64,000 nucleotides of DNA from Cystobasidiopsis lactophilus. Its lineage: Eukaryota > Basidiomycota > Agaricostilbomycetes > Agaricostilbales > Chionosphaeraceae. Below the pieces are notes generated by a model that made no database searches, was not told the origin of the DNA, and saw only the letters and a list, made by a program, of their open reading frames with translations. The position numbers were made by a program, and so were the translations under genes. The stretch lies in NCBI GenBank assembly GCA_001599975.1, contig BCIO01000003.1, forward strand, positions 3,349,727 through 3,413,726, in the 5' to 3' direction. Within the stretch, counting starts at the first letter, position 1; every line of letters begins with the position of its first letter. Positions 4,449-61,458 of the stretch are shown piece by piece.

Positions 4449-4768
4449 AAAACATCCCATACGAACGAAGAGCGGCTATCGACAAGCGGAGACGAAAAAG
4501 GAAGCCCGGTTCTTTGCGATACTGCAACGTGATATCAATCGGCGCCATAGTATGATGCCCACCATGTCTCTGCCTTCAAAAGACCCTTTATACCCTTTTG
4601 TGCTGTACGAAGATCTAGTTCGTGGGAGAGAAGAAAGCCCCTCCCCTTGAAGTGCCTTTGAAATATGCCTCGGGACATTCTTTGGGTGTAGGTGGCTCGG
4701 TGATTTCATCATCGCTGTACATAGAACTTTCTCGGGAAACGTCTTTGCGGACAAGGGCAGAACAAAAC
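4449..4768. other. Convergent intergenic region
   Basis: Lies between the 3' ends of the kinase gene (+) and the next gene (-). It probably holds both 3' untranslated regions and polyadenylation signals. No coding feature is seen. Confidence 0.5.
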
Positions 4769-5624: not shown

Positions 5625-6549
5625 TAGAGCGGAGAACGCTCTGCTCTCGGCGAAGCGCTTAAATGGATGGCACGTCTGAACTCATACCGACCTGCAGCCG
5701 TCGCCATTCACTGTCAAAAAGCGTGGAGGACTTTGTGGTTCCTCTGAAAGCTGTGTGAAGCGCGAAGCATATGCTGGCAGTCTATACATACTTTGAAAAT
5801 GCGATTTTACAGGCGGGCGCATTTATGAAGGCACGTCTCCAAGCAATAGGAAAGGATAATGGGCCTATTTCGGCGCACCGGTCAAATTAAACTGAATGTC
5901 GTTCGGCTCGTTGGCTCTGATGGTGAGCTCGGTGACAAACTGAACGAAGCTCGTGCTTTGTGTCTGTAATATTATTTGCGGGCATGCGAGTTGGCATGAC
6001 TCAAAGCAAGCATACCGCCCGATCAAAGGAGCGAATATCCTTGTCCATATAATGAGAAGCGGCGCCGACAACCAATGCGCGAGCGAGGGCAGGGAAGGCC
6101 GCTGCACAGGAAGCGGCATGCCCGCCAGTTTAAGTAACTCTTTTCCCTTGTTTGCGCGATTCTCCAGCCATTCAGAGTCAGACTTCTGAGAGAAAGTGGC
6201 AGAGCAGTTGAAGAGAGTGAAACAGAGACGACAAGATTTCAATCAGAGGAGCGAGTGGCGGCAAGATCATTCTGCTGAGCAACCTACGCGGGACGCCTCC
6301 AAACAGTGGCAGTAGGTCTGTGGGACGTAAAATGCTCGACTAGGCACTTGGATACGCTCTTTGAGAGTGCAGGCAGACACAGGGGGATTACAAAAGAGCG
6401 CCTCGGAGTGAGAGGCGAGCGAGCTTCATTGACCCTTGAGTCGTGGGTATCAAAGCGAATGGTACTACAATGGCATTAAAGACTTTCAAGAGCCATAGCA
6501 CTTCCTACAAGCAAAACCCTTTGCTGTCCGCCGATTGCCTGCAGCCATA
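5625..6549. other. Intergenic region, no gene recognised
   Basis: About 0.9 kb between two minus-strand genes. It has only short frames without recognisable features and is AT-richer than its neighbours. It probably contains the promoter of the gene ending at 4769 and the 3' region of the gene ending at 6550. Confidence 0.45.
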
Positions 6550-7980
6550 TTAGCGTTGCTTCTTCAATCCTTGCCAGTTCCATTTAGGGACGCGGGGCTT
6601 CTCCCTGTATGCACGAGGATATTCCTGTTCGCTTGGCGCAGTCGTCATAGGCAGATTTCTGGGCAAGTCTGGATCAGATAGATAGGCGCCGCCCGACAAA
6701 ATGGGGACTAACACTCGTTCCAATTCATCCTTTGGCACATAGAGGAAGACATGCTCTATTATCGAGTCAATGGATCGAAAAGCAACAAGGTAGCAGTCAT
6801 CGCCGTCCTGTGGATCCTCGGTCGTGATGTCGCGGCACAACGCAATCGGTCACGAGAAAGGAACCTACCTTGTTCCTCTTGGTGGCCATTTGTCCTCGAG
6901 TGGCTTTCTTTCCCACAAATGGTGTGCCGACAACACGCAGATGATCCATCGTATCGTATGCGTAGGTGAACGGGACGGCCGACAATGCCTAGCCATTTGA
7001 GTTGGGTTGAGCTGCTCCATTCGCGCGGTGAAGAGCTCGGAGCACGCACAACTCTATTGATCCTTGGACTTTGAGCAGGAATAACACCCATACTGTCGCT
7101 CAGGGGCGGAAGGTCGGTCCAATGGTCAAAACTTCCTCCGCTGCCCGAGGAAAAAGTGGCGGCAGGGCGGGACTGGATGCGACTGAAGTTCATATGGTCG
7201 TCAAAGGAAAATCCCTTAAGGTCTGAGAGAGGCGGCAGTGGGCCGGCTGCATTGCTCGAGCCGGTGAACCCTTGTGCGAAAGGATCGGAAGCCGGGTCGC
7301 CGGCGCGTAGGCTGCTTGCAACGGGGCTTTTGGGGGATCGTAGATGGTTGCCATAAGGTTGAGACCAGTTGGAAAGCTCGCTCGCACAGACGCCTTCCGT
7401 CGACAAGGGAGGGTGAGAGACCGAGAACTGCGAGGTTGTCCGAGACGATGAAAAGGTCGTCATCGCAGGATCGAAAGCAGGAGTATTTGGGCTCCTCCTA
7501 GTTGGAGACCCAACATTGCTCCACTGGGGCGAGAAGGTGGTGGAAGTGGCGGCCCCGCCAAGGAAGGGTTTGAGGTCGTTGCTGGACCCGTACGATGGAG
7601 TGGGTGTTGACAAAAACGAAGCCGGAGACATAGTGTTTGATGACATGACGGTGTCGAAAATAGACGACCGAGAAAAAGAGGTCGGATCCATGACGGGAGT
7701 TGTAGTTGTAGGAAGGCGATAGTCATAGGTCGCGGATCCAGCATTGGAAACGGGTTGGTTAGAGTACTGAGACTGACCGGCGGACCCATCAAGAGATGCG
7801 AAGGAACTGTCCGGAGCAGCTTGACGCGCCGCAAGGGGTGAGGTTGCCGCCGAAAAAGCGAAGCTGCTCGAGTTGGGCACTCGAGGAGCGTCAGGCGTTT
7901 GAAAGAGCGAGGGCGTGGTGAACCCAGGAGGCAGAGCAAACGAAGATTGGTGTGGCTCTTGCAATGAGCTCAGGAAGCCC
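6550..7980 (-). CDS. Unrecognised Ser/Thr-rich disordered protein, 5' end unresolved
   Basis: No family recognised. The main exon (about 7980 down to about 7050) encodes roughly 310 residues of low-complexity sequence rich in Ser, Pro, Thr, Phe and Gly, likely intrinsically disordered. An intron of about 61 bases ends near 6990, leading to the ordered-looking segment VPFTYAYDTMDHLRVVGTPF. A second intron follows MATKRNK, and the last exon begins DGDDCYLVAF and ends LKKQR before the stop at 6550. No in-frame ATG lies upstream of 7980 before a stop, but a good acceptor (CACAG) sits there. One or more 5' exons must therefore exist further upstream; I could not find them. The ordered C-terminal part of about 120 residues is the best search query. 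Confidence 0.6.
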
Positions 7981-42600: not shown

Positions 42601-45470
42601 TGGCGGCCTTACTTGGGTTCCCTATAATCAGTCCGACCTATCGCGTTGAAGCGCAAAAGTTCAAGATTCTGGCGGATCCGCCCGCAGCCACACTCCTGCA
42701 CCTTTTGCGTACCTCCCCGCCCAAGAAGTCAGAAGAAGCTTCGGCCGTTTTCAGCTACTTGTCCAGCATTGTGACGGTCTGTCATTCAGCCTTTACTTGC
42801 AGTCTCTCTTGGCTCACATGCATTCTCGATCAGGCTTTCTCTTCCGGCGACTACGCTGAGCTTCGGAAAACGCCGTTCATTCCAGTTGCCCGCAAAGTGT
42901 CGTCCAGCTCGGTGGATGTTACCGTCCAAATGGTAGAGCCTTCGTCGTGTTACTTCAGCAACGAGTCCTCCAACAAGATCTTCGCCTCCATCTTTAACTA
43001 CATTGACTTTGGCAATGCCAGCAAAGCCTTCCTCTCTGCGTGAGCTTCCCCTCTGAAGCTTAGCTCTTACGCGCTTTTGAAAGATGGTTCGAAGGTGTGG
43101 CGTGCGGGCTGAACCCAGCACCTCCGAAATTGCGGCGACGGTGCTGTCAGACCCTGCCCGAATTCTTGATCTTGCTGGAGGTTTCGAACCTTACATGTAA
43201 GCTCGACGATTCCCTTCCCGTTGATGTCAGTCGTTGAAGAGGCTGGACTGCTAAAGGGATATCCTTCGCCCTATTGCTGCCTCGTACAAGACGTTTTCCA
43301 AGGACCTGCTGACCGAAATGCGCACCAAGCCGTTTTTGCCGGCTCTGATTCGAATCAAGTCCAAGTCTAAGTCCAAAGAGGCCGAAGACGAAGAAGAAGG
43401 TGTCGAAAGCTTTGGGTTGCGCCAAGCGGCCAGCGTGGTCTTGGTCGATAGCGTCATCTTGCACCGGCTCTTTGGTCACCTCGTGTATGCCATCCCTCAG
43501 GAGGATATATTCGAAGTGTTTGCAGAAGCCCTGGGAAGCAAGCGCCTGTCCAAGCTCTGCCACGAAGAGATCAAGATGTCGGCAACTGTGCCTTCGAGTA
43601 ACCAAGCGGACGAACTGAAAGCACTCATACTGGAGCGACTCGCTTTGTTCTTGCACGAAAGAGATGGCAGCCGCAAGGACATTGTGCGCTCCCCAGAGTG
43701 GCTGAAATCTCATCTCAAGGTGGTCGAAGTTCGCAAGCTGGAAAATGTGAGCAGAATCCAAACGCTGCTTGGTCGCATGAAGCACGAAGTGTGGAGTCTG
43801 ACCGATCCTTTGTCTTCAGCACATTACTTTGGTTTTCGGCCAAGGTCACACCACCGTCGTCGTGCCAGCAACAGCCAGCGCTTCGATGCTCCGGAACGAG
43901 CTGGTGCTCCACTTGACATTTGCCGAACTCGATTACTTCGAAGTCGCATCTGCTCTCTGCAAGCATGTTCTCTCCAAGCAGAGAGTTAACGACGCCCTGC
44001 TGCTCCTCACGCTGCTGACAACTCCTCTGAAGACGCTGCAGCGCCGAGGCTTTGACACCAGCCGCATTCTCAACGCACGCAAAGCAGAGCAGGTTCGAAT
44101 CGAACAAGAGAGGAGGGAGGATGAACTCAAGCAGCAGCAAGTGGCTGTCACTGCTGCGGCACAAGAAAAGCAGGTCCAAGAGTCGGTCAAAAAGATCCAA
44201 GAGGTGCTGCCAGACATTGATCCCGAATTCGTCCAATCACGTCTACAACAAGCGCCTTCTATGCCCCTGGACTCCTTTCTGCAAAATCTGCTCACGGCGG
44301 GGACCAATTACCCCAAGAAGCCGTCACCTTCATCTTCGCCACCCCGACTGCCGCGGCCCGAAAAAGATGCACGGACCAATGCAGTGGCGCCTGTGTCAAG
44401 TCCTATTGCCCCAACTGGGTCGGCAGGAGGGTTGCTGAGCAAGTGGAAGAATCGCTTTGGCTATCACCCAGTGCCTTCGTCTTCTTCTTCATCGTCCGCC
44501 ATCACACCTTCGCCGGCCACCCCGCCTCCAGTCTTACCTCCTCCTTACACCTCCATGCGCCCGGGCCAGGGCCAAATTGGGCAAGGAACAGACGCTACGC
44601 CAGTGGACGATATCAAGTCGAACGTGATCCGCGCCATACAGGCCTCCAAGCCTGACCAAGCCAACAATGTTTTGAGCCAAGGAGATGTTCGCCAGGTGAA
44701 GGAATCGGAGGCTACTTACTGCGACTCGACCGCGGTGGGTTGTCGTGTTTGAAGATCAGCCTTGACATATCTGAAGTTCATCTTCTCACAGGCGACCANC
44801 CNAGTCTACACCACTGATATTGACGGTCTACGCTTCTTCATTGCCAAAGATGTTCCAGATGCCGAAGCGGTTTTGACGTGGGTTCTTAAATCTCTGCTTT
44901 GCGCGCGGGGAGACTAAAGAGGTCAACAGACAACACCTGGACTCTTTGAAGCGGTTCGCTTCTCAAATCATCGTAAGTTTTTTGGTGCTAGCCTGGCTAG
45001 CTAAAGGCATTGCTGATCGCGCTTGCTACAGATTCCCTTGGGAGGTGTCTTCCGACTAGATCCTCGAGCCCTGCACCTTTTCTACGACCTCTCTGGCCCA
45101 TTGATTGCTTTCAACCGGAATGGGTCGCTCTTCATCAATCTGAGATTCTTCTTGGCGTGGCATGATGACCAAGTCTCTCGCGGCGACCTGGAAGGGGCAC
45201 TGATTTCCAACTTTTTCACGCTGGCCCATGAGATTGCCCACAACCTGGGTTCGCGTCCTCAGCTTGCCTTTGTTTGAGACTGAACTAATCAGATTGAGTG
45301 AACAGTATCGGAGCACGGCAGTCAGCACGAATTCTACTCGTCCAGCTTGGCCGAATTTCACTTCATGCGCTTGGTCAGGTGGGCGAAGGTTTTGCTCGGA
45401 GACTGGGACGACGCTGATTTGAGTCCACAGCTACCTGGAATCCATCAAGCCCGCCGGAGCTTCGCCTTGA
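39656..45470 (+). CDS. Large HSP90/histidine-kinase-like ATPase (DUF3684) with C-terminal HExxH
   Basis: A protein of about 1,700 residues with an N-terminal GHKL ATPase domain and the fungal DUF3684 region. The ATP-binding N box reads YRELLQNANDAKAK (Glu and Asn conserved), and the glycine loop is DKVGAFGVGFYALFS, split by introns after KILARYS and after FTESD. The central 1,000 residues lie in one exon (40043-42777). Then come ALLGFPIISPTYRVEA, FLSACGVRAEPSTSEIAATV, GLRQAASVVLVDSVILHRLF and QEDIFEVFAEALGSKRLSKL. A coiled, Gln-rich stretch and a Pro/Ser-rich linker end in SKWKNRFGYHPV. The C-terminal domain reads IPLGGVFRLDPRALHLFYDL, FINLRFFLAWHDDQV and HEIAHNLVSEHGQHEFYSSS, an HExxH motif with further His and Glu. 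At least ten introns. Two ambiguous bases (44798, 44801) fall in the exon that begins ATSLVYTTDIDG. Role unknown; by fold it could be a chaperone-like ATPase. Confidence 0.85.
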
Positions 45471-45711
45471 GGCCATTTCCACCTCTGAACGCTCGATAGA
45501 ACTCTTGTAATCATTACTTGCACGACCTCATTGAATGTAGACTAGCCTCTGTCGGTCATCCTATCTTGTGCCACGACTGAGACGCCACCGCATGGGCACC
45601 GGCCGTCAACATCAAACCTGCCTCCCCCTAAGCTTAAGTTAGAGTCGGACGTCCATCTTGCACTTGACAGACTTTGCTACCAGTTCCGGTGCTTCCTCTC
45701 CCCTACAGAAG
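45471..45711. promoter_or_regulatory. Short promoter region of the Rdx gene
   Basis: Only 241 bases lie between the ATPase stop codon and the start of the next gene, on the same strand. It ends with a pyrimidine-rich leader. Confidence 0.35.
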
Positions 45712-46497
45712 ATGTCTGAGAAGTGCGAAGATTGCCTGCCCACGCAAACTGAAGCGGCAGCTGGTCCTAAGGTCGCCTCGGCCTCGACCTCTCAAGGCGC
45801 TCAACCCAAAGCGGCTCCAGAGGTCAACTTGCTCAATGCCGCGACATTCACAGTGCCCAGTGCACCGACAGAGGGTGCTCGAATTGTGATTGAGTTCTGT
45901 GATCGCTGTCGATGTGAGTTCAGCTCGACGAGGAAACTCGACAAACTCTGAATGACACGACTTCGGGACGCAGGGCTTCGTGAGCTTTTCACTAGTGCTG
46001 TGTCCAACGCCTTGACCAGGATAGTACGAGAGCAGACCGAGCTACGTGGACGCAAACAGAGCTGGTCTGTAGAGCCCCCAGTCCTGACAGCCAAGCGCAT
46101 GAACTCAAGTTTCGCCATCGGGCTCGCAGTTCTTGACGTTTCCCAACACACCTGAGCAGAAAGGCTTGACTTCGATAACATTGATGCCGCGAAACGCACC
46201 AGAGACGGCCGGGAGATGGCGGGTCTGGCTATGGCTCGAAGGCTCGGAGGACGGCCGACTGGTTTGGGATCGCAAGATCGAAGAGGTCTGGCACCCTCTC
46301 TTGCATTGTATTGGAATTGCACTGAGCAGAAGACGATAGGGCTTCGGAGAGATGAAGGTACTCAAGCAAAGGTCCGCAATGCTTGCTTTGAGTTGTCTTG
46401 CCTTTGAGCTGATGTGATCCTCCGGTTGCCCACTCAAAGGATACGAGATGTGCTACTTCCGGAGAAAAGCCTAGGACACTCAGATCGTTCATTGTAG
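45712..46497 (+). CDS. Selenoprotein-W-like Rdx family protein (cysteine form)
   Basis: Thioredoxin-like redox protein of the Rdx/SelW/SelT/SelH family. ATG at 45712 gives MSEKCEDCLPTQTEAAAG, a low-complexity N-terminal extension, then the core VIEFCDRCRW, with the redox pair CxxC and Cys in place of selenocysteine. The core is only readable if a 6-base exon GGCTTC (45974-45979) is used: the joined sequence is CRWLHRATWTQTELFLTF. Introns are 45914-45973, 45980-46035, 46065-46129 and two later ones. The rest reads SGRWRVWLWLEGSEDGRLVW-like, DRKIEEGFGEMKVLKQRI and RDVLLPEKSLGHSDRSL, the last being the usual Rdx C-terminus. Stop at 46495-46497. About 180 residues. Probably a cytosolic oxidoreductase; physiological partner unknown. 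Confidence 0.88.
45974..45979 (+). other. Six-base micro-exon of the Rdx gene
   Basis: GGCTTC between intron 45914-45973 (ending GCAG) and intron 45980-46035 (starting GTGAGC). It supplies the last two bases of Trp, a Leu and the first base of His. Without it the reading frame and the conserved RW-RATWTQTEL block are lost. Confidence 0.8.
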
Positions 46498-46627
46498 TCT
46501 TCGTCTCGCGTCACTGTTCGAATGTCTAGTGGAACGGAGTAACTTTGCATCTATATCATTAGGGAGCCATCTACACGGACAAGCTCGCGCAAAAATGCCA
46601 TGTACAAGTCAATCGAGCGTACAAATG

Positions 46628-48083
46628 TCACCCTTGCTTGACCTCATACTGAGTGTAGTCTGGAAGCCGTGATTGCTCGCTGCTGCCTGCAAATCTGGAG
46701 GCAATTGGGCTGACCAAGGCCGAAAGCCAACCCCCAACCTTCTCCAAAAGCGTAGAAGTCGTCACGAGGCCGACCACTCGCAGGCCGAGCAGCACCAGCT
46801 CGACGCCAGGCCGAGATTGCCAAAACAGCCACTTCGGCACCCACACTGCTGGCCATTGACCGTCCTTGACGATGGGCCTCATCAACTGTTCGTAGCTAGC
46901 AAACGCTTGCACGTGGTTGCCATTGTGCTTGGCAAGCTCGCCGGCCAGAAGGTAGGCGCCAACAAGCGAGAAGCTGGTCCCTTGGCCGCTGAACGCCGTG
47001 CCACAGTATCCTGCGTCTCCCACCATCGTGAAGCGGCCCCGGCTCCAGAGAGGCATCCGAACTTGAGCTGATCGTTCGAGGTAAAAGTCGGTCTCTGGAT
47101 GACCGAGCTGGGCCAGCTGAAGCAACATTCACGTCAGCTTCACGATACCTTTGAGAGAACTCGTGATAGTTCTTACAACGTCAAGACCTTGGAAGCTGAG
47201 ACCCTTGAAGCGGTCTTGGATGAACGACTTTTGCACCTCCGCGCTCGACTTTTCGACGCCGGTGGACGGGGTCCGCAGGATGGCGAAGGCAAAGGTGCCG
47301 CCTTGGTTGTCCGGCCTTATGACCAAAGTGCGCTTGCCAGTGGCGAACATGACACGCGAGAACTTGGAGTCTGGGCGCAAGAGCGGGCATCGCCAGTAGG
47401 CCGTGTAGAAGCCGAGGTCGAGCCGCTTGATCTCATCCTTGGTAAAAACGAGGCGACGGGATGACGATCCGACACCTTCAGTTGAGACCACGAGATCGAA
47501 CTTGCGAGACGAGCCGGAGGCGAATTGAACTGTGATGCCGTCTGCCTGCTCCTGCAAAGACTGGATGTGGTCGCCGTAGATGTACTCCGTCTGGTTTAGG
47601 GCTTTGTCCACGAGGATTTGAGCCAGGTCGCCGCGCAAGATTTCGAGTTCATTGGTGAACGAGAATTCCTCCTTGAGGTCGGAAGGGACGCCAAAGGTGA
47701 CCCGCGGGCGATCTTGCTCGTCCACAATCACGGCGCCCACCTCCTTCGTTCCCTTGAGACGGACTGCATCGATACTGGAGCTCCCTCCGTCACTATCGAA
47801 AATCAATGTTGTGGAAGAGCAACTCACATGTCCATTTTCTTGCCCACCTCTCGGCCGAGGTCCTGCAGGTCGATGCCTTGGCCGCCTTTGCGTAAAGAAG
47901 GTGCGCGCTCAACAATAGTTGTGGAGTAGCCATAGCGATTCAACCAGTAAGCCAGTGCCGGTCCAGCGATTGACGCTCCAGAAATCAAGATCGACAGCTT
48001 GCCTTCTTGATCGACTCGTTCAATCGTGAAACTAAGACCTCATGTTGTGATCACACACCTTTAAGAGCAGGGGTGGAGGACAT
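46628..48083 (-). CDS. FAD-dependent monooxygenase (PHBH/TetX-like)
   Basis: Aromatic-ring or similar hydroxylase of the FAD/NAD(P)H group A family. ATG at 48083 starts MSSTPALK; after an intron come KLSILISGASIAGPALAYWL (GxGxxG-like Rossmann motif with Ser-Ala) and GQGIDLQDLGREVGKK. A second intron (35, 47 or 53 bases, all keeping frame) leads to IDAVRLKGTKEVGAV. The middle domain contains LEILRGDLAQILVD, LVVSTEGVGSSSR (the DG-like motif), and YWRCPLL. After the last intron FTMVGDAGYCGTAFSGQGTS is the GD motif that binds the ribityl chain. The C-terminal helices include ASYEQLMRPIVKD. Stop at 46628. About 440 residues, at least three introns. Substrate unknown. Its stop lies only about 130 bases from the Rdx stop. 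Confidence 0.88.
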
Positions 48084-48635
48084 CTCGTGCAGCGATTTGA
48101 GGGAACAAGCAAAGCGCAGTGACAAAATTTGGAGCGCGAGCAACAGAGCGGATTGGGATCAAGACAGCAAATCGCGGCTCGATGCACACCGCTGCGCCGA
48201 TTAAAGCAACACGTATAGCATGATAGAGTGCCGAACAGCAGCGCAAGTCCTGGCGTTCTAAATCGGGCGACACGCCTTGCCCTTTGCCGAGGTGATTCGT
48301 CGTCGCTGGCGGCTAAGCTTTGTGCGGCCGCTCATGTCTCGCTTTGTGGGCGCGTCAGTTCCCAGACATGTTAGAAGTGGCGCTAAGTTGGAGAAGGAAG
48401 CACGATCACGCTGCGCGCGAGCCTGACAATTTGCTGCCCACTCGGTGGCGAATGACCAGAGTCTCTGCATGGAACGCCCTTCCTTCCGCGTTCATTTGCT
48501 CAGATTGCGTTTGGATCTTGAACGACAAGGGCTCAGTACGGGTTCCAAAAGAGGAGGGCTCAGAGTGACAAAATCGGTCTAAGACGTATGAAACGGGAAT
48601 GAGAAGAAAATGAAATGAAGGAAAGTTGGCACTAG
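48084..48635. other. Intergenic region, no gene recognised
   Basis: About 550 bases between the start of the monooxygenase and the end of the first tandem gene. Promoter of the monooxygenase is expected here. No supported ORF. Confidence 0.4.
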
Positions 48636-49879
48636 CTATGAGCTACCATCTTTAGAAGCGTCAAGGCCGTGTCCCAAGCGCAAGTCTCTGAATCTCGCAT
48701 CCCGCGCGCGACGGGCCAAATTCCAGCCGGTCCGCAAGTAGTCGGCCACCCTTTCGCGATAGATGCCCTTCTCTGGAAGAGCCTTCTTTCGTTCAGAGAC
48801 CGCCATTTGGAGACGGTCCTTGAGACCTTGAATAGCTTCGGCTTTCTTCTGCGAGTCGCGAGAGATTTGCTGAACACGGTGCATGAGGAGAGTGTGCATG
48901 CGGGATTGGTCACTGTGTTTGTCGTCGCGGGGTTTGTTCAACTCAGCCGACTGTATAATCCAAATTTTCGCCAGACTGGTTTGGAGGCGGTCGTCAGAGA
49001 TGAAACACCCGGAACTGCATTTACTGTCGGGGCTGCCATGGTGCTTGTTGTAGAGAGAAGCGTAGTTGAAAGAAACCGTCATGTGGTAGAGAATGGTGAT
49101 GATCGCCATCCGCCGCTGAAATTTAGGGTAGCCAGCTGTGGGACAGGTCAGAACGAGTCAGCTTGCCGCCTCCCACAACAGGAGAAGAAGCGAACCCGGA
49201 TCTGTTATGATCCAATGGTAAGATTTCACTTTGGGGAAGCGCTGATCGAAACACTGGCAAAAGGCGACGAGAACCTCATCAAGCTTTGCCAGCGTCGAGC
49301 TGGCCCACGCTTTGTCCATGGCTTTGGCATGATTGAAAAGGACCGACAGCCCTTTCATCGTTTCTATGATTTTCGGGCCAATAGTAAGACGCGTTGTTTC
49401 GTCTACTATCTGGAGCAGAGCGGCCATGGGCACTGCGAAGGGGTGCTCGGCGTCGAGATGGCCAACGCGTATCTGTGGGCGACCGTTTCGATCACAAGGA
49501 GTGCCAGCAGTCTCCCTATATATCTTGTCGTTGAGGTCCAAACTGTCGATACCGAAGGCTCGCGCACTCACCTGTCTACAACAAGCTTGATGTCGGAGCT
49601 CGCCCAATAAATGGCCATTGCACGCTGCAGGACAGTGTCTGCCGCCCTTTCCCAGTTTGAGCGGATGAACGTCAGGCGCGAGATTTGGCGAGCCCGCTCG
49701 GCCACGAAAAAGGCGATGAGCTCTTTCCAGGCCAGTTTCTGGTCATCGTGCAGGCGCAACGCCCCGGCGATGGGGAGGTTCTCCTCCGCCTCAGCGGCAG
49801 GAGGCTCTTCTTGGATAAGGGGGGAAGCATCTACGAAGGGCTCCAGGGGACTAGTTTGTTCGATAAATTGGCCTGGCAT
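48636..49879 (-). CDS. Unrecognised protein, tandem triplet member 1
   Basis: I do not recognise this family. ATG at 49879 starts MPGQFIEQTSPLEPFVDASP, a disordered acidic leader. The first conserved block is KLAWKELIAFFVAER followed by SNWERAADTVLQRAMAIYWA. After an intron come AEHPFAVPMAALLQIVDETT, a helical segment LDEVLVAFCQCFDQRFPKVK and SYHWIITDP. The last exon contains MAIITILYHMTVSFNYAS, then the signature LQTSLAKIWIIQSAELNKPR, a basic coiled segment MHRVQQISRDSQKKAEAIQG, and the end KGIYRERVADYLRTGWNLAR. Stop at 48636-48638. About 370 residues, two clear introns (49507-49564 and 49144-49203 approximately). Members 2 and 3 show the same order of blocks. No signal peptide; helical and soluble. 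Confidence 0.65.
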
Positions 49880-51297
49880 CTTTTGCAATGGCGGCGCAAG
49901 GAGATTCAACACGTCTGCAAATAAGACTGCCGAGGTCTGCAGTTGGCCAGATGTAGGATGGAGGAAGGAGAACAACCGTGAGAGGACCCGAGAGGTGCAT
50001 TTTGGCAAGCTCGCCGGGGCAGCAAAAGGCCCCTCGAATGGCCAGCTGAGCCGACAAAGGGAACCGGGGCAGCCAAAACTTCCTACTCGACGACCAAGAC
50101 CGAGCTCATAGTCCACAAGGCTAGCCATTCCGAGAGGGTATTCCAAGGCTTCGCCGGGTCTGGCAGCCGAGCAGCAGTGGCGACTCGCTGAATTAAAGCA
50201 TTTGCTGCATGGCACGGGGCATCAGGGGGTCACATAAGCCACTCAAAAGGGCGCTCAGTGTAGCAAGCAAGGCAACTGGCGAGCAAGCAGTCATAAGAAA
50301 GCCAGAAGTTTGCGCCAACTCGGCCAAAGCGGAGCAAGAAGCGAGAGCCGGGCTTGGAGCTGCTCGTCGATGTGCTCATTCTTAGTTCAACCGCTGCCTT
50401 GTGACTGTTGGTCCTAGTAGCTCGACTGGCGAGGCGGCGGTCCTGCGCCGACCTTCATCTGCGTCCAACAATGCTTCCAGATCAAGACTTGGCCGCGATT
50501 CCGGGTGCAAGGCTTTGCGGCTCGCTGAGCGCCCACGAACACCGAGAACGGGTCAGGAACGACGTCAACTCAGCTTAAGGCGAGCGAGTGGATTCAAGGG
50601 CGTCGTCTCTAGATTGCAGCGGCTAGGCAAGAAGCTGGTCGGATGATGGGAGCCCTCAACTGCGGGCGACCCGGACTCTGGCTTCCATCAGCGCTTCCCT
50701 GGCGATACTCTGCGTCTCACCAGTGTTCGTCTTGAGGGGTAGCTGGAGCCCATGCGTGCCGGATGAGCGGGCGAGCGGGAACGGCTGTATGGGTTGGAGC
50801 GCAGCTGTGGCAAAAGGGCAGGCGGCACCGGGAAGCGCAACGGTGCAGGGTCTGGAGCATCCAGTGGTGGTCCAAGTGCGTCTGTATCCTCGTCCTCCTT
50901 CCGCCTCATCGACTCGACTCCATTCGCCTTTTCGGCGTCCGCATCATGCTCAAGGCCCGAACTTGAATATCCAGTTCCGTTCAGGCGACCTGCCTGCCAA
51001 CGACTTGGATGCTCCCTTCGACCCATCGCCCCTTGCCTGCAGCCAAAGGTCGACTTCTGGGCTTCGGTCGCGAAGTAGGCATTGTCCGACTGACCCATTC
51101 CTTGTCCTTCAGTCTTTGAGCGAGGGCTGTTGCTGTGCTCATAGCAAGAAAGTGGGAAATGTAATATGTACAATTCTACCAGATCGAAACTAAGATGAGG
51201 GCCGGAAGATGGCACTATGCTATAACGATTGAAAACAAGACCGATGTGAATGCCCATCAGAGTTCGAAACCGAGCCCGCAAGCTGTTGAGATGCGCT
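49880..51297. other. Upstream flank of triplet member 1, partly duplicated
   Basis: About 1.4 kb. The segment 50310-50380 resembles 53095-53155 upstream of member 2; on the plus strand both encode a lysine-rich motif followed by GLELLVD or GLELVVD. This may be a remnant of a divergent partner gene or a duplicated promoter. Other long frames (50688-51317) are not supported. Confidence 0.45.
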
Positions 51298-52531
51298 TCA
51301 AAGACCGCGAAGGACATTAGCTCCTCGCATGTTCCACTTGTGGCGAAGGGCGTCCCATTTCATCCACACGCGATCCTGGATCCGCTCACGGTAGACGCCC
51401 TTGTTGTCTGGAAGTTTCTTCAAGTCGCCAACAGCAATTTCCAAACGCTGGTTCCGATGCTCTTCGAGAACGCGAGCTTTGTGGGCTTCGGCAAGAATAG
51501 GCCAGACCCGCTGCATAAAGAGGACGCACGTGCGGTTGTTAAGAACAACATACGCCTCCTCATTACTTTTAGGCCTGTTTCGTTTGGTTTTGATTCGGAA
51601 ATCTTGAGGTTTGCCTGCTTGAGCCGATTGCAAGATCCAAAGTTTAGCCAGGCAGTCAAGAACAGGGTCGTCAAGGCGAGACGCAGAGCGAGAGCAGCAA
51701 CCGGAGACTTTCGAGCAGCTTCGGTGGTGATCGGCGTAAGCATTCGCATGCTCGACGTAAGCTTCCATGAGATGGAGCTGGGCGATGACCAACATTTTAG
51801 CCTGGCCACTTTTAAAGGCCTCTGTTGGTGGCACCCCAAACAAGAATATTGAGCCAGGACACGCAGGATGGGGTCAAAGAATGCTGACCGGGATCTCTTA
51901 CGACCCAGTGCCGCCGGGTGGTGCTTGGTTTTGGAAACTCTTTGTCAAAACGTTCGCAGAATATTCCGCAGAGTTGGCGCGCTTGACTTTGGATTCCGTC
52001 TTTGGCAGTTAGGCGATCACGGGCAGAACGTCCGACGAAATATTCTTTCAGGTGCTCGTACATTTCTTGCAGCTCCTCTTGGAGGACGTCGGATTTCTCT
52101 CGAAGGCACTTGATAGGTGCTGTGAAAGGATGCGTTTGATCTTGATGGGAAATGGGCGTCGAGAAGAAACCAAGGTGGTCGTAGAGGTTGGGATTGAATT
52201 TGCTGGAGCCACGGTGTGAAGATCAATGCGAATGGGCAGTCCGGGCGAGATCGTCTCACTTTTCAACCTCGGCCATAATGCCTTTATCCTCCCAGCGAGC
52301 GGAAGTTGCATGCTCCAAAGCAATGCCGACTGCCCTCCTCCAGTTGGGTCGGATGAATGCCCACTTGTGATCGCGCTTAGCTATATAGAACTTGACAAGC
52401 TCTGTCCAGGCAGCCTTTTGCTTTGGGGTCAAAGGACCTCTGTCCAGCGTCTCTATTGAAGAGGCGTCAACAGAGGACGCAAGAGAAGCGCTGTCGTCGC
52501 TTGCGGTTGGAGAAGGCTCAACCTTTGGCAT
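51298..52531 (-). CDS. Unrecognised protein, tandem triplet member 2
   Basis: Paralogue of the genes at 48636 and 53984. ATG at 52531 starts MPKVEPSPTASDDSASLASS, a Ser/Asp-rich leader. The conserved opening is AAWTELVKFYIAKR then RPNWRRAVGIALEHATSARW. After introns come an exon with MYEHLKEYFVGRSARDRLTA, then RQLCGIFCERFDKEFPKPS and HWVVRDP. The last exon contains AKMLVIAQLHLMEAYVEHAN, the signature LDCLAKLWILQSAQAGKPQD, a lysine-rich stretch, and GVYRERIQDRVWMKWDALRH. Stop at 51298-51300. About 350-370 residues. Block spacing matches member 1 closely, including the HW-I/V-x-D-P motif. Not recognised by any family I know. Confidence 0.65.
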
Positions 52532-53983
52532 GGTGAAGTTTCTGGGGGGAAGAAGATGGGCCGCTGGACACCAGAGCAAAGATAGGGGCTGGCGGTCGTC
52601 GCCGCTTGAAGGTTTAAGGTGGAAGATAGCGCTGGGGCTCGGAAGAGGGAAGCAGCGAAGGGCGCAGAGATATTTCTGAGTGCGAGGCTTCACGGGGGCA
52701 AGAGACAGATCTAGCAAAGGCACAGAGCTATCTGCGTCTGTCTGGATGCTAATGGAAGAAGGACAACCTGCGCATTTCCCTGGCACCCTCTCCCGAGAAG
52801 CAGCAGCAGCGTTTCAGAAATGGCGACTTCCTCGGACGCAAGAACAACCGGCGACAAAGGGAAGCAGCAGCAACATTACTAGCTCTAGTGCGACCAAGTC
52901 TCTCCAACAGAACCTGTGCGGTGGGAGAGCATTTAACTTCGGGCACGTCCAGATGAGGCTTGGGCACTGCGGCTCAGCCAATGGCAGTATCAGGCTCCGC
53001 TCTCGAAGCAGGCGGGCTAGCAAACACGACATGCTCCATCTTTCTAGAGGGCGCTCAAGAAACAAGGCAACCCAGCAACCAAGCAGATGCGCAGATGAAT
53101 CGAGGCAGCTCGCCAACGCGGACCAAGAAGCGCGGCTTGGAGCTGGTCGTCGATCCCGTCTTCCAATTTGTAGCCGGGGCGGTCCACGTCCAGCCCTCTG
53201 AAGTCATCAAGGACGCGTCTCACTGGCGCGCAACGCAAAGAGGCCGCTCGAAGAGGGTCACCACGGCTCAGCAGCCTCTGCCGTCTTCAGCTCTGGTCCT
53301 GCCTGCTTCCCGCCGCGCTTCGTAGCTCTCGGCTTCTGGACATTGGTCACAGCATCTCTCTGACCAGGGCGATGCGCTGAAGCCTAAGGTCCGCTCGCCG
53401 CTTGAGGGACTCGGATCTTGCGGCTGGGACTTGAAGCGCTTTGAGCCGGGGGTGGCGATTCGCTCTGAGGACATTGCGTGGAACAAGGCGGTGATGGCAT
53501 GATCAGTTGCGTTCCCTCTACGTGCTGTGCTTGCTTCACAATGCAGGCCATTCATCGAGCAGTCATCTCCGCTGCCCTCCCTATTCAATGCCCAGAGTCG
53601 ACCTCCTTCGCCTCTACTTCCTCTTTTCCTCCCTTCAGTCCACCTTTCGCAGCTTGGCTGAGGTCTATGTCGTCGTAATGAATGGCTGTGGAAGCCCCTT
53701 CTTGTCGTTCCAGGCCGCCGGTGGACAAGCGCACGAGCTTGATGTGGGTGGCCAACGCTCGTCGTTGCAAGATACTGTACTCAACTCACACTCAACAGGT
53801 TGCCATGCATTTGAGAGGTCTCGTTAAGGGTACAAGTAGCCGTAGATGTCTTTGTTGGCTACGGGGAATGTGAGATTGGGAACTGCACAAGTCTAATGAT
53901 AGCTGGGTACAAGAGATGAAAGCACGCGGTAAACGAGCGAGACTATCAGAGTATCAGTTCGAGTATAAAAAGGCGAACGACCT
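52532..53983. other. Upstream flank of triplet member 2, possible small ORF
   Basis: About 1.45 kb. A plus-strand open frame from ATG 53094 to about 53325 would encode about 76 residues beginning MNRGSSPTRTKKRGLELVVD. A similar motif exists upstream of member 1 (about 50325-50375). The ORF could be a divergent gene, an upstream exon or chance. The rest shows nothing recognisable. Confidence 0.4.
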
Positions 53984-55426
53984 CTATAAGTTGGGCTGCT
54001 CGCCGCGGAGGCCCAGAGCTCGAATGCGGTTCATAAGTGCCAACTTGTCGCCCACCTTGGCAGCAACGTGATCCAACATTCTCTGGCGCTGCTGAGGGAA
54101 ATAACCGCTCTCTTGACCTGTCTTAAGATTGAATTTGGGAGGGGCCTTCTCCATTCGTGCAACGCGCTTGTCGCGTGCCGTCCGCTCTCTTGCCGTCCGC
54201 TCCAGCATTTCACAGACACGGGTCATGACGAGACCTCGGAGGTGCGCTGAAACTTGTGTGCCGTCACCGTAGGCTTTGGGGCTTTCGTGCAAAGCGGAAC
54301 GTAGGATCCACATGTCGGCTAGGGATTGGATGAGACGATCTTTCAGACCAATCGGACGGAAGATCATGAAGAGTCCAGCTTTGGTGTAGTCTTCCTTGAA
54401 AAGAAACAAATCCGCTGCATCAAAGATGGCCCGCTGGCAAATGCGAACGCGAGCGTCCATAGCTGTAAACCGTCAGCGAACGAAAATCGCTAGGGCAGCG
54501 AGCGCCAAGTTTCAAGAACACACCTGCACTTGGAACAGTCCAATACATTGAATGGCTATCCTTGACTTCCATGCCGTTAAAATGATCATCAAATCGCTTC
54601 AAAGCCGCGACGATAGCTGGTTTGATTTGGTTGTCCACAAGGGCTATGCTCGACCGCTCCACTTTTGCTGTGGCGCTTTCCAATTCCTTATGGTAGACAG
54701 CTTCGTTACGCTACAGAGAAAGATCGAATAGCTAAGCCAGCATCTCAATCAAGTCGATGCAACGCACCTGTCGTTTCTCTTCTGCATATTGCTCGCATAG
54801 TTTGCCTACTTCGGCCAGTATTTCTTCAATGTCAGCAAACACATTGGAAGCTTGATTCATTTCTTCGGAGTCGAGGCCTCTAGCGAAAAGGTCATCTCGC
54901 ATAGGGTGATGCCAGACGGCCTGGGGTTTAATTCCAAGATGGCCTTTGGCAGCAGCGTGTTCTCTGATACGATGAAACATTATGACAATCAAATAGACAC
55001 AAGCGAGGCTACTCACTCGCGGGCGACTGTCATAGCTGCCGACTTCGTGCATAGAACTCGAGCGCGTTGGAATGCCACTCGAATCATTTTGTCCCAATTA
55101 GGAGGCGCCACTTTCGTGGGTTCACGTCGACGGCCAGCCCAAAGTAAGGCGTTCTTCATCTTGGCCTTGACTGCCTCATTCCACTTTGGGCGCATCGCCA
55201 AGTGGAATTCAATGAGAGCTATCCAGATAGCAGCATCTTCTGGTGCAAGTATGTGGCCATCGGCACCCTTGATGACGGCAGGTTGCTCAGAGGATCTTTC
55301 TATACCCTCTGAGAACTTGGAGCCGGGTCTAGCGATATTGACTATTTGGGGGGCAGCTGGCTCGTTTACGTTGACCATTTGAGCTATGTTCGCTCCTGTG
55401 GAAAGCGTAGCGCTCGTAACCATCAT
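53984..55426 (-). CDS. Unrecognised protein, tandem triplet member 3
   Basis: Most divergent member of the triplet. ATG at 55426 starts MMVTSATLSTGANIAQMVNV. The opening block reads AAIWIALIEFHLAMRPKWNE, then VAPPNWDKMIRVAFQRARVL. After introns come KPQAVWHHPMRDDLFARGLD, the helical SNVFADIEEILAEVGKLCEQ and NEAVYHKELESATAKVERSS. A further block is IKPAIVAALKRFDDHFNGME, followed by HSMYWTVPSA. The last exon has KEDYTKAGLFMIFRPIGL, the signature LIQSLADMWILRSALHESPK, LRGLVMTRVCEMLERTARER and a C-terminus ending RGEQPNL, stop at 53984. About 400 residues, at least four introns. The order of conserved blocks equals that of members 1 and 2, although identity is low. Confidence 0.62.
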
Positions 55427-56300
55427 CGAGAGTACAGAAAAACGTGAACAGGCGAGAAGAATAGTGAATGGCAGGGGTCGACCGCAGCCAGATGTGCACG
55501 ATGTATTGAACTGTTCGTTGTGGCGAGTGATGAACAACCTCTATTTATCGAGAGAGCGTCCCAGGTCGCTGTTCGAAGCGAAGGAACCGAGCCCGAAGAA
55601 GAGAGACAGAAAGGCAAGCTCGGCTCGAGTTGGACAGCTCGGCGGACAAAGGACCCCCTCGAGCGATTCAGGGAAACAGGAGACCAGTCTTCCATTCCAG
55701 GAGGCGGTCTCGCATCGAGGCCGAGGATGACCATCGGGGTCGACGAACAGGGACGGCTCGAGTGGGCAGCTCGGCGCACTCTCGAGCACTCTCGAGCCAA
55801 CGCCGCGTTGACCTGTGTGCCTTTCAAGTAGTCTAAGGAGTAGGGCAAGAAGCCATGACAGACTTAAGAGACTGGTGACAGGGCAAAGCAAGCAAAGTCA
55901 CGGTGTGGCAAATCAAACAATTCGCGACAGAAAGCCCAAATCTCACTTGAAAGGGTATCCAGGGCGTCAGGCACTCCATCAGACTAGCAGCAAACCAGCG
56001 CAAGAATACCGGACATGACCGACTCAGACCAACAGGCTGGCGCGCTGCTTGGAGCTGCTCGGCCAACTTATGGCTTCCATTCTTGCCTTCTTCTGTTAAC
56101 GTGTCTGGGCACTCTGGTCAACCACACTTGGTCCTAATCATCGTCTTTGCGCCGCGTCGAGTTCGCCGCAGGCGTTTTGCCGCCTGGTCCGTTGCTGGAA
56201 GCTTGTAAATTTTTGGGGCCATAATCTTTGCGGTAAGCGCTCGGCTTGACTTCTCATGTATCAGGTCTGACGGATTATAGGTGTGATCTGTCCTGCTCAG
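55427..56300. other. Divergent upstream region, no gene recognised
   Basis: About 870 bases between member 3 (-) and the F-box-like gene (+). Frames such as 55423-55848 on the minus strand extend in from the first exon and are likely leader. At 55775-55800 a short direct repeat (CTCGAGCACT-type) is seen. Confidence 0.4.
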
Positions 56301-57712
56301 ATGCACCTCGCCGGCTTGCCCGTCGAGCTGCTCCACCGCATTGCCGGCTATTTGAACGCCACACCCGGGATCGATATTGGCAGGCAACAACCAGAGCCTT
56401 GCCTCCAGTTCTATCACCGGTCCGATTTCAAAACGGCCTTCACCTGTCGAGCAGTCTACGCCGCCTTTGCTCCCGTCTTCCGGCGAAGTGTCTGTGTCAA
56501 GATCGATGGGCAAGACTTCCACCACACATCTGACATGCATGCTCTACTGTATCAAAGACAAGGTCTTCTTCGGCATGTCCGACTCATCGAGCTTTATGTT
56601 GGAGGCGCGTCGCCGCTGGCCTTCTTCGAAGAGTTCTTGTCTTGGCCGGTGTTCCAGATAACGCGTCCCGGCGTGGCACTCAGCCTGACGAGAGTTCCAC
56701 GGGCCCAGTTTGAAGCAGTTTTAGCAAGTGGAGTCTGGCGGCGGGATCAACTGGTCGACTTGGCGGTTCGCTTCAACAGTCATTCTGATTCGCTCCTCGA
56801 CTTGACCCCTTTTGTTCGCCTACATGCGGTCAAAATTGATCATGTGGCTATTGTTCTCCGCACCAGAGATCACGACCTGTGCCGGCTGGGTTTCCAAGAC
56901 ATTTCGAGCTGGTCGATCAAGGACGGGCAATTGTTGGTTGGGGACAAGTGCTGCAGCTGGCCTTGGACGACGATCACCCCTTGTGCAGCTTGGAAGATGC
57001 GGAACTGGAGCGCCATCTGCAAGTTATGTGGCGGGCGGACCCGCATCGCGAGAGCCGCTTGTATCTGTACGCGCAAGCAGCGGCAAATCCCACCTTCCAG
57101 CTGGACTGGGGCCGAAGCATGTCAGCACTTCCGACAAACACGACCTTTCTCTTTATCGAGCTCCCCTACGAACGCGGAGATCTGGGTTGCATGCGTTTCA
57201 GCAAGATGGCGACCTGGGCACATCTAGCCCACCTCACCGCCTTGACAAAATTGATCATCTGGTACCAGGCCGGCCCTCTGTCGCCTGATGTTCTCGACTC
57301 AGAAGACGACATGATGGAGCAGCAGGTCAATGCTGGGTGTTTCTCCCTTCACACGCTGGTGTTGCCGAACCTGGTGGATCTTGAAATACACTGCGACTGC
57401 GAGATGCCTTTTCAACACGAAGCTCTACTGGCCTCCTCCCTCAAGATTCTCACCGAGCAAGCGCATTCGCAACTACCGGCTCTCAGGCGCCTCGAACTGT
57501 GGCTGTCACGGGTGAAGCGGTGGCAGCGCTTGCTCAATTTCATGGGCGAGGTCGGCTTCGAGTTTGCGGTGGGATTCCGAGATCACGCAGACGACAAAGA
57601 GGAGGACTACCAGGATCCACAGGCAGACGCGGTGCCGCTAAGACGGATGGGATCTGAGGAGGAGTTCGAGGTGGTGGACGATTTCAAATCTCAAAGCTCG
57701 GAGGACGAATAG
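56301..57712 (+). CDS. F-box-like protein
   Basis: Starts MHLAGLPVELLHRIAGYLNA, which has the LPxELLxxI pattern of an F-box, the part that would bind Skp1 in an SCF ubiquitin ligase. The following text (DFKTAFTCRAVYAAFAPVFR) continues the F-box helices. The remaining residues show repeated Leu/hydrophobic patterns, LLDLTPFVRLHAVKID and LVLPNLVDLEIHCDCEMPF, as in degenerate leucine-rich repeats of fungal F-box proteins. One intron of about 60 bases (from about 56889 to 56948) joins LCRL to VLQLALDDDHPL. The C-terminus is acidic (EEEFEVVDDFKSQSSEDE) and ends at 57710-57712. About 450 residues. I chose ATG 56301 because the F-box follows immediately; an in-frame GTG-led extension exists upstream. 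Substrate unknown. Confidence 0.7.
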
Positions 57713-57920
57713 GTAGCTGTTCTTCCTGAATCTCGTTTGGATGCTCCTCTCACCCTTTGTGCAGTGACAAGCGCCGAACGCCGAGTTGTCTCGCACCAGG
57801 CGCGATGCCTTTGCACAGGTTCTTGGGCAGCAAAATCATACATTTTAAGGATACGAATATCGTGGCAACATGATTTGTTATATACACACACACAGGAGGC
57901 GAATAAGCGGTGCAAGGCGG
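57713..57920. other. Convergent 3' region
   Basis: About 200 bases between the F-box-like and GID4 genes; contains an ACACACAC run near 57885. Confidence 0.4.
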
Positions 57921-59155
57921 TCAAAGGATCGTGTAGTCGCCCCAGCACATAGGAGGCGCCAGGATTAAGCGCTGATAGGGTGTGGCGATAGAATACAGGC
58001 CGTGGATGGAGCCGTCTTTCCTTGAGAGACATAGATAGTAGAATCCCTGTGAGACATACCCCGAACTCATCAGATTGTGCACTGATGTGAGAAAGGCAAG
58101 GAGCGCCACCCACCGCTATTGTCAGCTGCGAGTCTTGGGGCTCCAAGTTGACGAAGCCGGTCTCTCGCCAGCGCATGAGGATGTAAGAAGGGTGGTGGCC
58201 TTGGTCCTTGATAGCCTCTGGGTCGATGCCGGCGAAAGCGTCCAGCTTGGACCAAAAACGGCGGTCCGAGGCGACCATGCGCTCCAGGTCGGCCGGCGTC
58301 GAGCCTGGGTCCCCCGTCCGAAACAAAGTGTGGTTGACTGTGCACAAAATTTCAGCGCAAGTTCTTGGGTAGAATTGAAGAAGAGCTCCAAACGCACTGC
58401 CATCAATGATCTCGCCCTCGAAGCTGGTGTGCACCCGCAGCGTCTCTGCCGAGCCGGGCACATTCTTAGCCTCTGTGATACGAACATATCCAGCTAGTCA
58501 GTCAGGGCATCGTGACTCAAGTGGGAAGGGCGGCTCACCCATGATGCCTCTGAGCAAGCCAAGGTCCCAGTCCACTTCCTGAATGAGCACCCTCACATCC
58601 CACCTGTCCTGCCTGTTTGTGGTGAAATGCGACATGAGGCTCTGTGATGTGGCTAGGGAGAAGCACGCAGACGAACCTTCTAGCGCCTGAAGGCTGACTG
58701 GCGACCCTGGCCTCGAGCCGGATCGCTTCCGCCGCTCCTCCCTGCTGCTGCCCGCCGCCTGTGCTGGACGGCAGCAGGACCCTGTATCCAGTTTGCGAGT
58801 ACTCGGACAGCGGGCAGAAGCTCTGGCAGCCCTCGAGGAGCGAGCCCTTCCTGAGCCAATCCGTCTGCACTGTTTCCCCCTTCCGGCTGCTGCCCCTCGC
58901 TCCTGCCGCCGCTGGCCCCGTTGCTGTGGATGTTGGAGGTTTGAGAAGGACGTCGGACCGCGGCGGCGTCAGTGGCCGGGTGTGTGGGTCGAGCAGCGAG
59001 GAGGGCGGCGCTTCGTCCAAATCGTCACTGGCGAGCGAAGTGGCCAGGCAGTCGGCCAGCGTGCTCCCGCTCGACGACGTGCCGGCCTCTGGAGCTGCTA
59101 CTGCTGCCAGTGGCTCGAGCGCCCGCCGGCTGCTGGGCGAGGCCGGCGTAGGCAT
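57921..59155 (-). CDS. GID4: GID4/Vid24-type N-degron receptor
   Basis: Substrate receptor of the GID/CTLH ubiquitin ligase, which recognises proline-starting N-degrons and promotes degradation of gluconeogenic enzymes in yeast. ATG at 59155 starts MPTPASPSSRRALEPLAAVA; the first 100 residues are Ser/Pro/Ala-rich and disordered. The β-barrel domain follows with SQTGYRVLLPSS, and across an intron WDVRVLIQEVDWDLGLLRGI. Next are HTSFEGEIIDGSAFGALLQF (family hallmark FFEGEII), WSKLDAF, SYILMRWRETGFV and FYYLCLSRKDGSIHGLYSI. The C-terminus LILAPPMCWGDYTIL ends at 57921. Introns at about 58601-58674, 58478-58542 and in the middle; the exact small exons between 58340 and 58100 are partly inferred. 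An insertion of low-complexity GGGQQQGG lies between the first two barrel strands. Confidence 0.85.
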
Positions 59156-59394
59156 TTGTTGTTTGTTGTCGCCTGAGAGAGGTCGAGTTGGTGCGGAGGC
59201 AAAGCTCAAAAAGCTTGAGCGGAAATTGCGTCAGGCTTTCGAACTATGAATTGATGGTAATGCAAAGGGGGTTTGTGTGATGCACAGAATATGGTGTGTA
59301 AATGATGCAGCCAGAGCTAGTCAGGACAGCGGCCCAGACTCCGCCGCTTCTCGTGGTGGCGAACCCTCAAGGGCCCCGTCTGTGCGGGGCGATT
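59156..59394. other. Upstream region of GID4
   Basis: About 240 bases between the GID4 start and the permease stop, both on the minus strand. Probably the GID4 promoter. Confidence 0.35.
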
Positions 59395-61458
59395 TCATAC
59401 AGCGGGCTTTGGTGGTGGTGGCAGAACGGGCACGTAGTGGCTGTGCTGCCTCAGGATTGGGCCATAGACCTGCAACGCCGAGAGACTTCAGCATTCGGGC
59501 CCACCGGGCAAAGGCACAGGCGTGCGCTGACCTTGAATAGGAAAGGTGCAAAGCCAAAGATGGTGAGAAGGATGCCAAGGATCGTGCAAGACCAGCCCTG
59601 TGCGTGAATCAAAGTCAGCTTCGTCGGTGGCAAACCCAAAGCATTGCATTCAAAGACCTACGGCCCCGAGATTGTTATACATCTGTTCAAAAGACGATTG
59701 GTATAAGCGAATGCTAATATGCTCGAGCGTGTGAACAGGAACGAACCTGAGTGGAGAAGAGCGGAAAGCAAGCAGCCATGCCGAAGCGCAAGAGGTTGAG
59801 GGCTTGGAAGGCGGCGCCCACTTGGAACTTGTACGTGTCGCTCAAGTAGATGAAGCAGCCCATGGTGAGGCCGATCTGGCTGAACGCAAAGATGCCGCCG
59901 GGGAAGACCGGCGCCGCCCAGTGTATTGACGGGTTCGCCGTCCAGCCGAGCCAAAAGAGCGAGATGGGCGCCAAGACGGCGCTGACCATGGCAAAGTAGA
60001 GCCGGATCTCTGGTGCTGGTGACTCGCCTCGCTCGATGGCTTTGCGGAAAGGCCGGTTGGCGATGGCGGCCGCGGGCTGCACGTCGATCACTTGAATAGA
60101 CGAACAAGCGAAAACCAAAATAGAAGCACGGCTCACTATTGATAAAAGCAAGCCGACGATGAGAGCGATGAAGGGCAGGCCAGAGTTGCCCACTGCAGAA
60201 AGGAAATGAGTTCGATCCAGCAACCAGCAACGGGGCGGGTAGGAAGCGTACGAGACCAGTGCCTTTGCTTTTGATAGATGTACGGATAGGCGCTGAAGAA
60301 GAGGTTGAGGATGGAGAAAAGGAAGGCGACGTAGAGGGAAAAGGCGAGGACGATGGGCTCGCGGACGAGGTAGGCCAAGGGCAGGACGAAGAAGCGCTTC
60401 ATTTGCTGGGCGACCACAAAGACCTTGCCCTTGTCGTGCACGGAAACGTGGGTCTGGCCAGTCGACTTGGTGAGGCGCGCGGCTCGCTGGCGGAGGACGG
60501 TGGGTTGGAACGCTTCGGAGACGGTGCAGCACATGATGGCCATCAGTCCAGCAAAGCCGGTAGAGACCCAATCGATGTTGCGCCAGGAGCCGCTGTACTG
60601 CACCACGTAGCCTCTACCCGGAAGAGTGCAGTCAGCATGTCCAATTTTTGACGGCCAGTCAAGGGCAAGAGGAAAACCCACCCAATGAGTGGTCCAAGCG
60701 AAGGGCCCATTAACTTTAGCGCTTCGCATTAGCCATTGATCTGGTGGCGAACGAAAGGCAAGAAGGATTGCGTACTGGTGCGACTGCACCCACGGTGAAA
60801 GGGATGGCCATCTCCTTAGGAACAAACAAGGTGCCGACTGTTGCTGGCCCAAGACTTTGGACGCAAGCGCTGAAGAAGCCGGCGAAGAAGCGGCACACAT
60901 TGGCCGCGGCGATGCCGTTGGCCCCAGCGACGCCTGCTGAGAATGCGGCAAAGACGGCCATCGTACTGTTGTTTCTTGGGCTATCAGACATGTCATGGGC
61001 GAGAAGCAATGAGAAGACGCACCTCGCTATCATCCACTTGCGAGAGAGAAGATCGGCTAAGGATGGCCACACCAACGAGCCTGCGGCCAAGCCCAACAGA
61101 AAGGTGAACTGGCCCAGCGCGAGGACTTCTTTGCTCGTGCCAAACTCTAGGGCCATTGGACCGAATCCAGACACGTAGGAGGAGACAGATATTGTGCCTA
61201 TTGTAAAGTTTGAAATGCATGAGCCCAACTCTTCAACAATGACTGATCACTCAGTGAATGCTGCCCACCTGCCATCATGGAGAAAGTGTACACCATCAGA
61301 GTATACCACTTCTTCCTCTTGGACCAGTTGAGCGCGTTGTGCGGATCGTCATCGGTAAAGGCGACAACAAATGGGTCTTCCGCCGTCCCCAGGCCCGGCA
61401 ATGGCGCCTTTTCTGGTGGCTGGACAACCATTGTAGACGAGGAATGTGTTGAGGACAT
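59395..61458 (-). CDS. DHA1-type MFS multidrug/polyamine permease
   Basis: Plasma-membrane drug:proton antiporter of the major facilitator superfamily, DHA1 (Tpo1/Flr1) group. ATG at 61458 starts MSSTHSSSTMVVQPPEKAPL, with the typical cytosolic leader ending DDDPHNALNWSKRKKW. Helices follow with SGFGPMALEFGTSKEVLALG, AAGSLVWPSLADLLSRKWM (motif A), CRFFAGFFSACVQSLGPATV and the antiporter motif LMGPSLGPLIGGYVVQ (motif C). The long loop contains LTKSTGQTHVSVHDKGKV. In the second half: LVREPIVLAFSLYVAFLFSI, FGMAACFPLFSTQ and SCTILGILLTIFGFAPFLFK. After the last intron comes VYGPILRQHSHYVPVLPPPK and the stop at 59395-59397. At least seven introns. Substrates unknown. Confidence 0.88.

Follow-up and report, generated by a model that had tools for sequence, protein, structure and literature searches.

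An apparently undescribed family of six genes in two tandem triplets in the fungus Cystobasidiopsis lactophilus

Introduction

Fungal genomes often contain gene families that have not been described. Three adjacent minus-strand genes (A, B and C) in a 64,000-nucleotide stretch of Cystobasidiopsis lactophilus DNA (C3:3349727–3413726, referred to as the window) raise the question of what such a family consists of and how its members came to stand side by side. A sequence-only reading of the window had described the trio as a tandem triplet of an unrecognised family, formed by old duplication and rapid divergence, and had suggested an effector-like or self/non-self recognition function. Here, gene models, searches of the 22.1 Mb genome (8 contigs) and of protein databases, and comparison of upstream DNA are combined to propose a history of this family.

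Results

Gene models of the window trio

The coordinates and strand assigned to the three genes by the sequence-only reading are correct, and splicing yields a complete frame for all three (Table 1). The models, which are built from listed splice candidates, contain three exons in A, three in B and four in C. The ordered motifs that had been reported for the trio are present in all three proteins: an opening motif (WKELIAF in A, WTELVKF in B and WIALIEF in C), a second motif (SNW, PNW and PNW, respectively), a third motif (HWIITDP, HWVVRDP and YWTVPSA) and a signature motif (LAKIWIIQSA..KP, LAKLWILQSA..KP and LADMWILRSA..SP). The third motif of C deviates from the D/S-P ending. A 322-residue open frame runs antisense to most of gene A (48642–49610, plus strand) and is taken as a chance frame, because the family homology and the introns are both on the minus strand.

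Table 1. Positions of the six genes and of the upstream block cores. Positions of A–C and of the block are those of the window; positions of D–F are those of locus L027 (C3:982001–992000).
Feature	Length (aa)	Position	Strand	Exons	Remarks
Gene A	375	48636–49879	-	49879–49572, 49515–49196, 49135–48636	complete frame, GT-AG introns
Gene B	369	51298–52531	-	52531–52260, 52202–51889, 51821–51298	complete frame; blastp matches to A and E
Gene C	423	53984–55426	-	55426–55017, 54963–54768, 54710–54524, 54462–53984	complete frame; blastp matches to D and E
Gene D	428	806–2256 (L027)	+		complete frame
Gene E	364	3536–4826 (L027)	+		complete frame
Gene F	379 (final model)	6288–7618 (L027)	+		complete frame, GC-AG intron 1 assumed
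Upstream block core of A		50323–50371	-		444–492 nt before ATG
Upstream block core of B		53112–53154	-		581–623 nt before ATG; from blastn, 20-base pattern and shuffles
Candidate decayed remnant of the block, upstream of C		56042–56061	-		616–635 nt before ATG; also 56041–56066, 73%

A large plus-strand gene at 39993–43986 matches DUF3684 (E 3.5e-238 over 1016 residues), and the match continues at 43255–43986 (E 1.6e-31). The neighbour of C (56271–57712, plus strand) begins with a sequence that by eye resembles an F-box (LPVELLHRIAGYL); a Pfam search with the first frame of this gene gave no match at 0.001. At 57694–58497 on the minus strand, a match to Vac_ImportDeg (PF09783) falls just under the cut-off (25.9 versus 27 bits, E 1e-5). 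Scans of positions 44000–60000 for Rfam families and tRNAs found none.

A second triplet on the same contig

When B and C are used as queries against the genome, matches appear at C3:982.9–988.6 kb in addition to the window; gene A touches the same region weakly (E 0.015). This region carries a second tandem triplet (D, E and F), about 2.4 Mb from the window on the same contig. The order along the direction of transcription is C-B-A in the window and D-E-F at the second locus. The triplet of the sequence-only reading is thus part of a larger set, which has at least six members. Searches of the 22.1 Mb genome with A–E as queries revealed no seventh member among the best-scoring candidates. Two stray matches, at C6:159702 (E 0.003) and C4:926928 (E 0.72), were rejected as extra copies by eye, their frames overlapping other open frames. 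The DNA examined around these stray matches also includes a minus-strand frame (L055 1609–2598) that shows by eye a GATA-type zinc finger (CSSCHTHNSPEWRKG).

Gene F required a choice. At the conserved register of its first intron (L027 6578–6638) no GT donor is present, and a GC-AG intron would fit; the intron is thus of a rare type, or else the gene shows decay. The first two introns of F line up with the family only when intron 1 is read as GC-AG, an assumption inside the final model, which was chosen by the intron phases of the family and is therefore partly circular with respect to them. The alignment with the first F model was the one used for the six-way protein search, the profile search of the PDB and the six-member Pfam check described below.

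Homology of the six members

By sequence and gene structure, A–F form one gene family. A and B match each other in blastp with E 4e-41 to 2e-40 at 30% identity (z 62 against 300 shuffles). The direct links of C to these two are weak: the A–C match has E 7e-4 and a score of 64, which one or more of 300 shuffles surpassed (highest 76), and the B–C match, with E 1e-4, has a score of 69, above all 300 shuffles (maximum 56). It is the second cluster that places C with A and B, through the matches C–D (E 6e-44), C–E (E 3e-27) and B–E (E 2e-18). E and F match with E 2e-48. In the comparison of all six, the weakest direct pairs are A–C (E 0.004–0.006) and A–F (E 0.007–0.009). FastTree and IQ-TREE concur on the pairs (A,B), (C,D) and (E,F), which have IQ-TREE bootstrap values of 100, 91 and 86, respectively.

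Seventeen of the 296 gap-free alignment columns are invariant (four W, three F, three A, two P and one each of M, N, H, L and V, the M being the start methionine). In 2000 row permutations the mean number of invariant columns is 0.0025 and the maximum is 1, a comparison in which the real alignment is match-optimised and the permuted ones are not. Intron positions are conserved as well. A phase-1 intron occupies alignment column 288 in all six members, five of the six (A–E) share a phase-2 intron at column 145/146, and a phase-0 intron is common to C, D and E and absent from A and B.

Pairwise identity among the six is 17–33% over the aligned pairs, in line with the low identity that had been noticed for the trio, and third codon positions differ at 0.58–0.68 in the five pairs tested, which is near saturation. 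As to the old duplication and rapid divergence proposed for the trio, these distances support copies that are old or fast-evolving. The GC3 of all six genes (48636–55426 and L027 806–7618) is 0.53–0.63, below the 0.67–0.74 of four other genes in this genome. Weak expression or rapid evolution would be consistent with this difference.

Protein properties and database searches

The six proteins are 364–428 residues long and have a pI of 8.8–9.4, with a net charge of +7 to +12 over the final 100 residues. By hydropathy alone, none of the six has a hydrophobic, signal-like N-terminus (the best 12-residue mean near the N-terminus is at most 1.12). A membrane-like stretch is likewise missing from all six, the highest 19-residue Kyte-Doolittle mean being 1.37.

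The trio had been called unrecognised, and Pfam bears this out: no match reaches the cut-off for A, B or C, or for D–F. The names found below threshold, HTH_NPRL3 (E 0.089) and Filament (E 0.034), each belong to one member. A PDB search with A alone returned six distinct sequences at E 0.038–0.93, none below 0.001, and a search with the six-member profile returned no chain at E up to 1. The AlphaFold models of A and C have pLDDTs of 39.0 and 40.3, and both are unusable for fold comparison. Such low values are expected, since the underlying alignments contained 5 and 3 rows, with B present only as exons. The secondary structure is helical in both of these low-confidence models.

A search of 5.8 billion proteins, which needs shared 5-residue words, found nothing with B alone or with the six-way profile. 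The sensitivity of this search can be judged from the family itself. The adjacent genes A and B have no 5-residue word in common, and B has none in common with any other member, so the empty result is nearly uninformative on whether the family is restricted to a lineage. As a control, the frame of the SOG2 gene described below found 86 proteins, including those of the Pucciniomycotina Phenoliferia, Phakopsora, Austropuccinia and Atractiella; the best-scoring named match is from Phenoliferia and is 40% identical. The database therefore covers Pucciniomycotina, the subphylum to which, on these SOG2 matches, the genome itself probably belongs. On the basis of the Pfam and protein searches, the family is apparently undescribed.

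The SOG2 neighbourhood

Gene D adjoins, in divergent orientation, a gene with a SOG2 domain (E 4e-66). A 258-nt stretch between D and SOG2 recurs upstream of E with 77.5% identity (blastn). The repeat stops inside codon 6 of SOG2 if the SOG2 start is the methionine of MRGHQ, a start that is not proven; a comparison with the 86 SOG2-type proteins yields eight weak matches (E 0.012–0.81), and none fixes the start. The presence of the SOG2 start region in front of E suggests that D is probably the older copy. Furthermore, the gene orders C-B-A and D-E-F, together with the pairing of the first genes C and D in the tree, make it probable that a block was duplicated from one locus to the other and that each locus later gained tandem copies. 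In the history that we propose, the gene beside SOG2 would have duplicated in tandem, the copied unit beginning at the SOG2 start. A block would have been copied from one locus to the other, and further tandem copying and long divergence would have followed. From its sequences, the family is a product of ordinary gene duplication.

An upstream block shared by five genes

A block of 50–90 nt lies about 420–625 nt upstream of five of the genes (A, B, D, E and F) and is part of the 258-nt stretch shared by D and E. In blastn, the block of A is 79.6% identical to that of B over 49 nt and 72.1% identical to that of D over 86 nt. Compared with 60 dinucleotide shuffles each, nine of the 15 gene pairs score above the shuffle maximum and six do not. 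The block of A stands above the shuffles with B, D and E; the pairs A–F and C–D tie the maximum, and A–C, B–C, C–E and C–F lie below it. The region before C does not exceed these shuffles in any of its five pairs. Of the best alignments with C in these five pairs, four converge on one place before this gene, and C may retain a decayed remnant of the block at best.

With no more than one mismatch, a 20-base pattern occurs only before B, D, E and F, the four source copies, which it matches by construction. With exactly two mismatches it occurs at five other places. The reversed-pattern control has no hits. A DNA search with the upstream block of D found only D's own copy and that of E. A coding origin of the block was considered and rejected by eye, since the D and E copies lose their common reading frame within it.

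Sequence conservation in this non-coding block exceeds that at the genes' silent sites, given how far the third codon positions have diverged. The simplest reading of its preservation is that the block is regulatory. It could instead be due to gene conversion, or the block could be younger.

Discussion

What, then, are the genes of the window? The reading that we favour, with a probability of about 45%, is a six-gene family in two tandem triplets that goes back to D and encodes soluble, basic, helical intracellular proteins, possibly co-regulated. The proteins would be mainly helical and would fold around a core of conserved W and F residues. Their basic C-terminal tail would bind a nucleic acid or an acidic protein, and this biochemical role is a guess. 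The six genes may be expressed together via the shared upstream block. A reading that claims more, in which the family is new and private to this fungal lineage and forms a six-gene regulon, its upstream element derived from the SOG2-side promoter and copied with every gene, appears unlikely to us.

The genes might instead belong to a known fungal family from which they have strongly diverged, for example one with a post-BTB helical region or another helical scaffold. We consider this doubtful, if the most plausible of the alternatives. With members this dissimilar, and with B devoid of shared 5-residue words, the protein search would overlook relatives beyond the six, and the profile was fed by only six sequences. 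The helix with the LA-x-x-W signature bears a vague likeness to the helices that follow the BTB domain of fungal BTB/POZ proteins (PF00651). Membership in the latter was rejected: no BTB match was found in any of the six proteins, and, up to E 20, the six-protein profile listed no open frame from any of the genome's eight BTB loci. The empty Pfam and PDB profile searches also speak against a known family.

Fast-diverging secreted effectors or genes of self/non-self recognition, the kind of role suggested for the trio, would share with A–F the arrangement in low-identity tandem copies, and the near-saturated third positions and the low GC3 agree with such a role. Effectors differ from A–F in the N-terminus, which here, by hydropathy alone, is not signal-like, and HET- or NLR-type allorecognition genes differ in their domains, no HET, NACHT or similar Pfam domain reaching the cut-off in any of the six. 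The length of the proteins, their basic charge and the family-wide conservation of core residues and introns also argue against this role, which we regard as improbable. The functional suggestion made for the trio is thus not borne out, divergence being the one feature left in its favour. Still more improbable are decaying or unexpressed copies with frames not kept by selection. The low GC3 and the missing GT donor of F intron 1 would be expected of such copies, but all six frames are complete with start and stop despite the near-saturated third positions, the intron phases match apart from the first two introns of F, and the invariant W, F, H and P residues are retained.

A tandem orphan family of comparable organisation is known in Pucciniomycotina. 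As described in PMC4469406, the MVLG_04105 family of Microbotryum lychnidis-dioicae has 4 members, three of which are adjacent, and its proteins are predicted to be small, secreted and cysteine-rich. By that description, the two families are alike in being small multigene families with some adjacent members and no Pfam domains, and differ in that A–F are 364–428 residues long and basic and have no signal-like N-terminus.

Returning to the favoured reading of a six-gene family that began with D, its interest lies in how much of its past can still be read. The repeated start of SOG2, a conserved neighbour, allows an older copy to be proposed, and the first genes of the two clusters, C and D, are each other's counterparts. 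To our knowledge, few undescribed fungal families show their history so openly. The SOG2-start repeat, the pairing of the clusters and the preserved block together make this family a usable test case for the origin of orphan families and for the question of whether a promoter element can outlive the coding sequence that it once accompanied.
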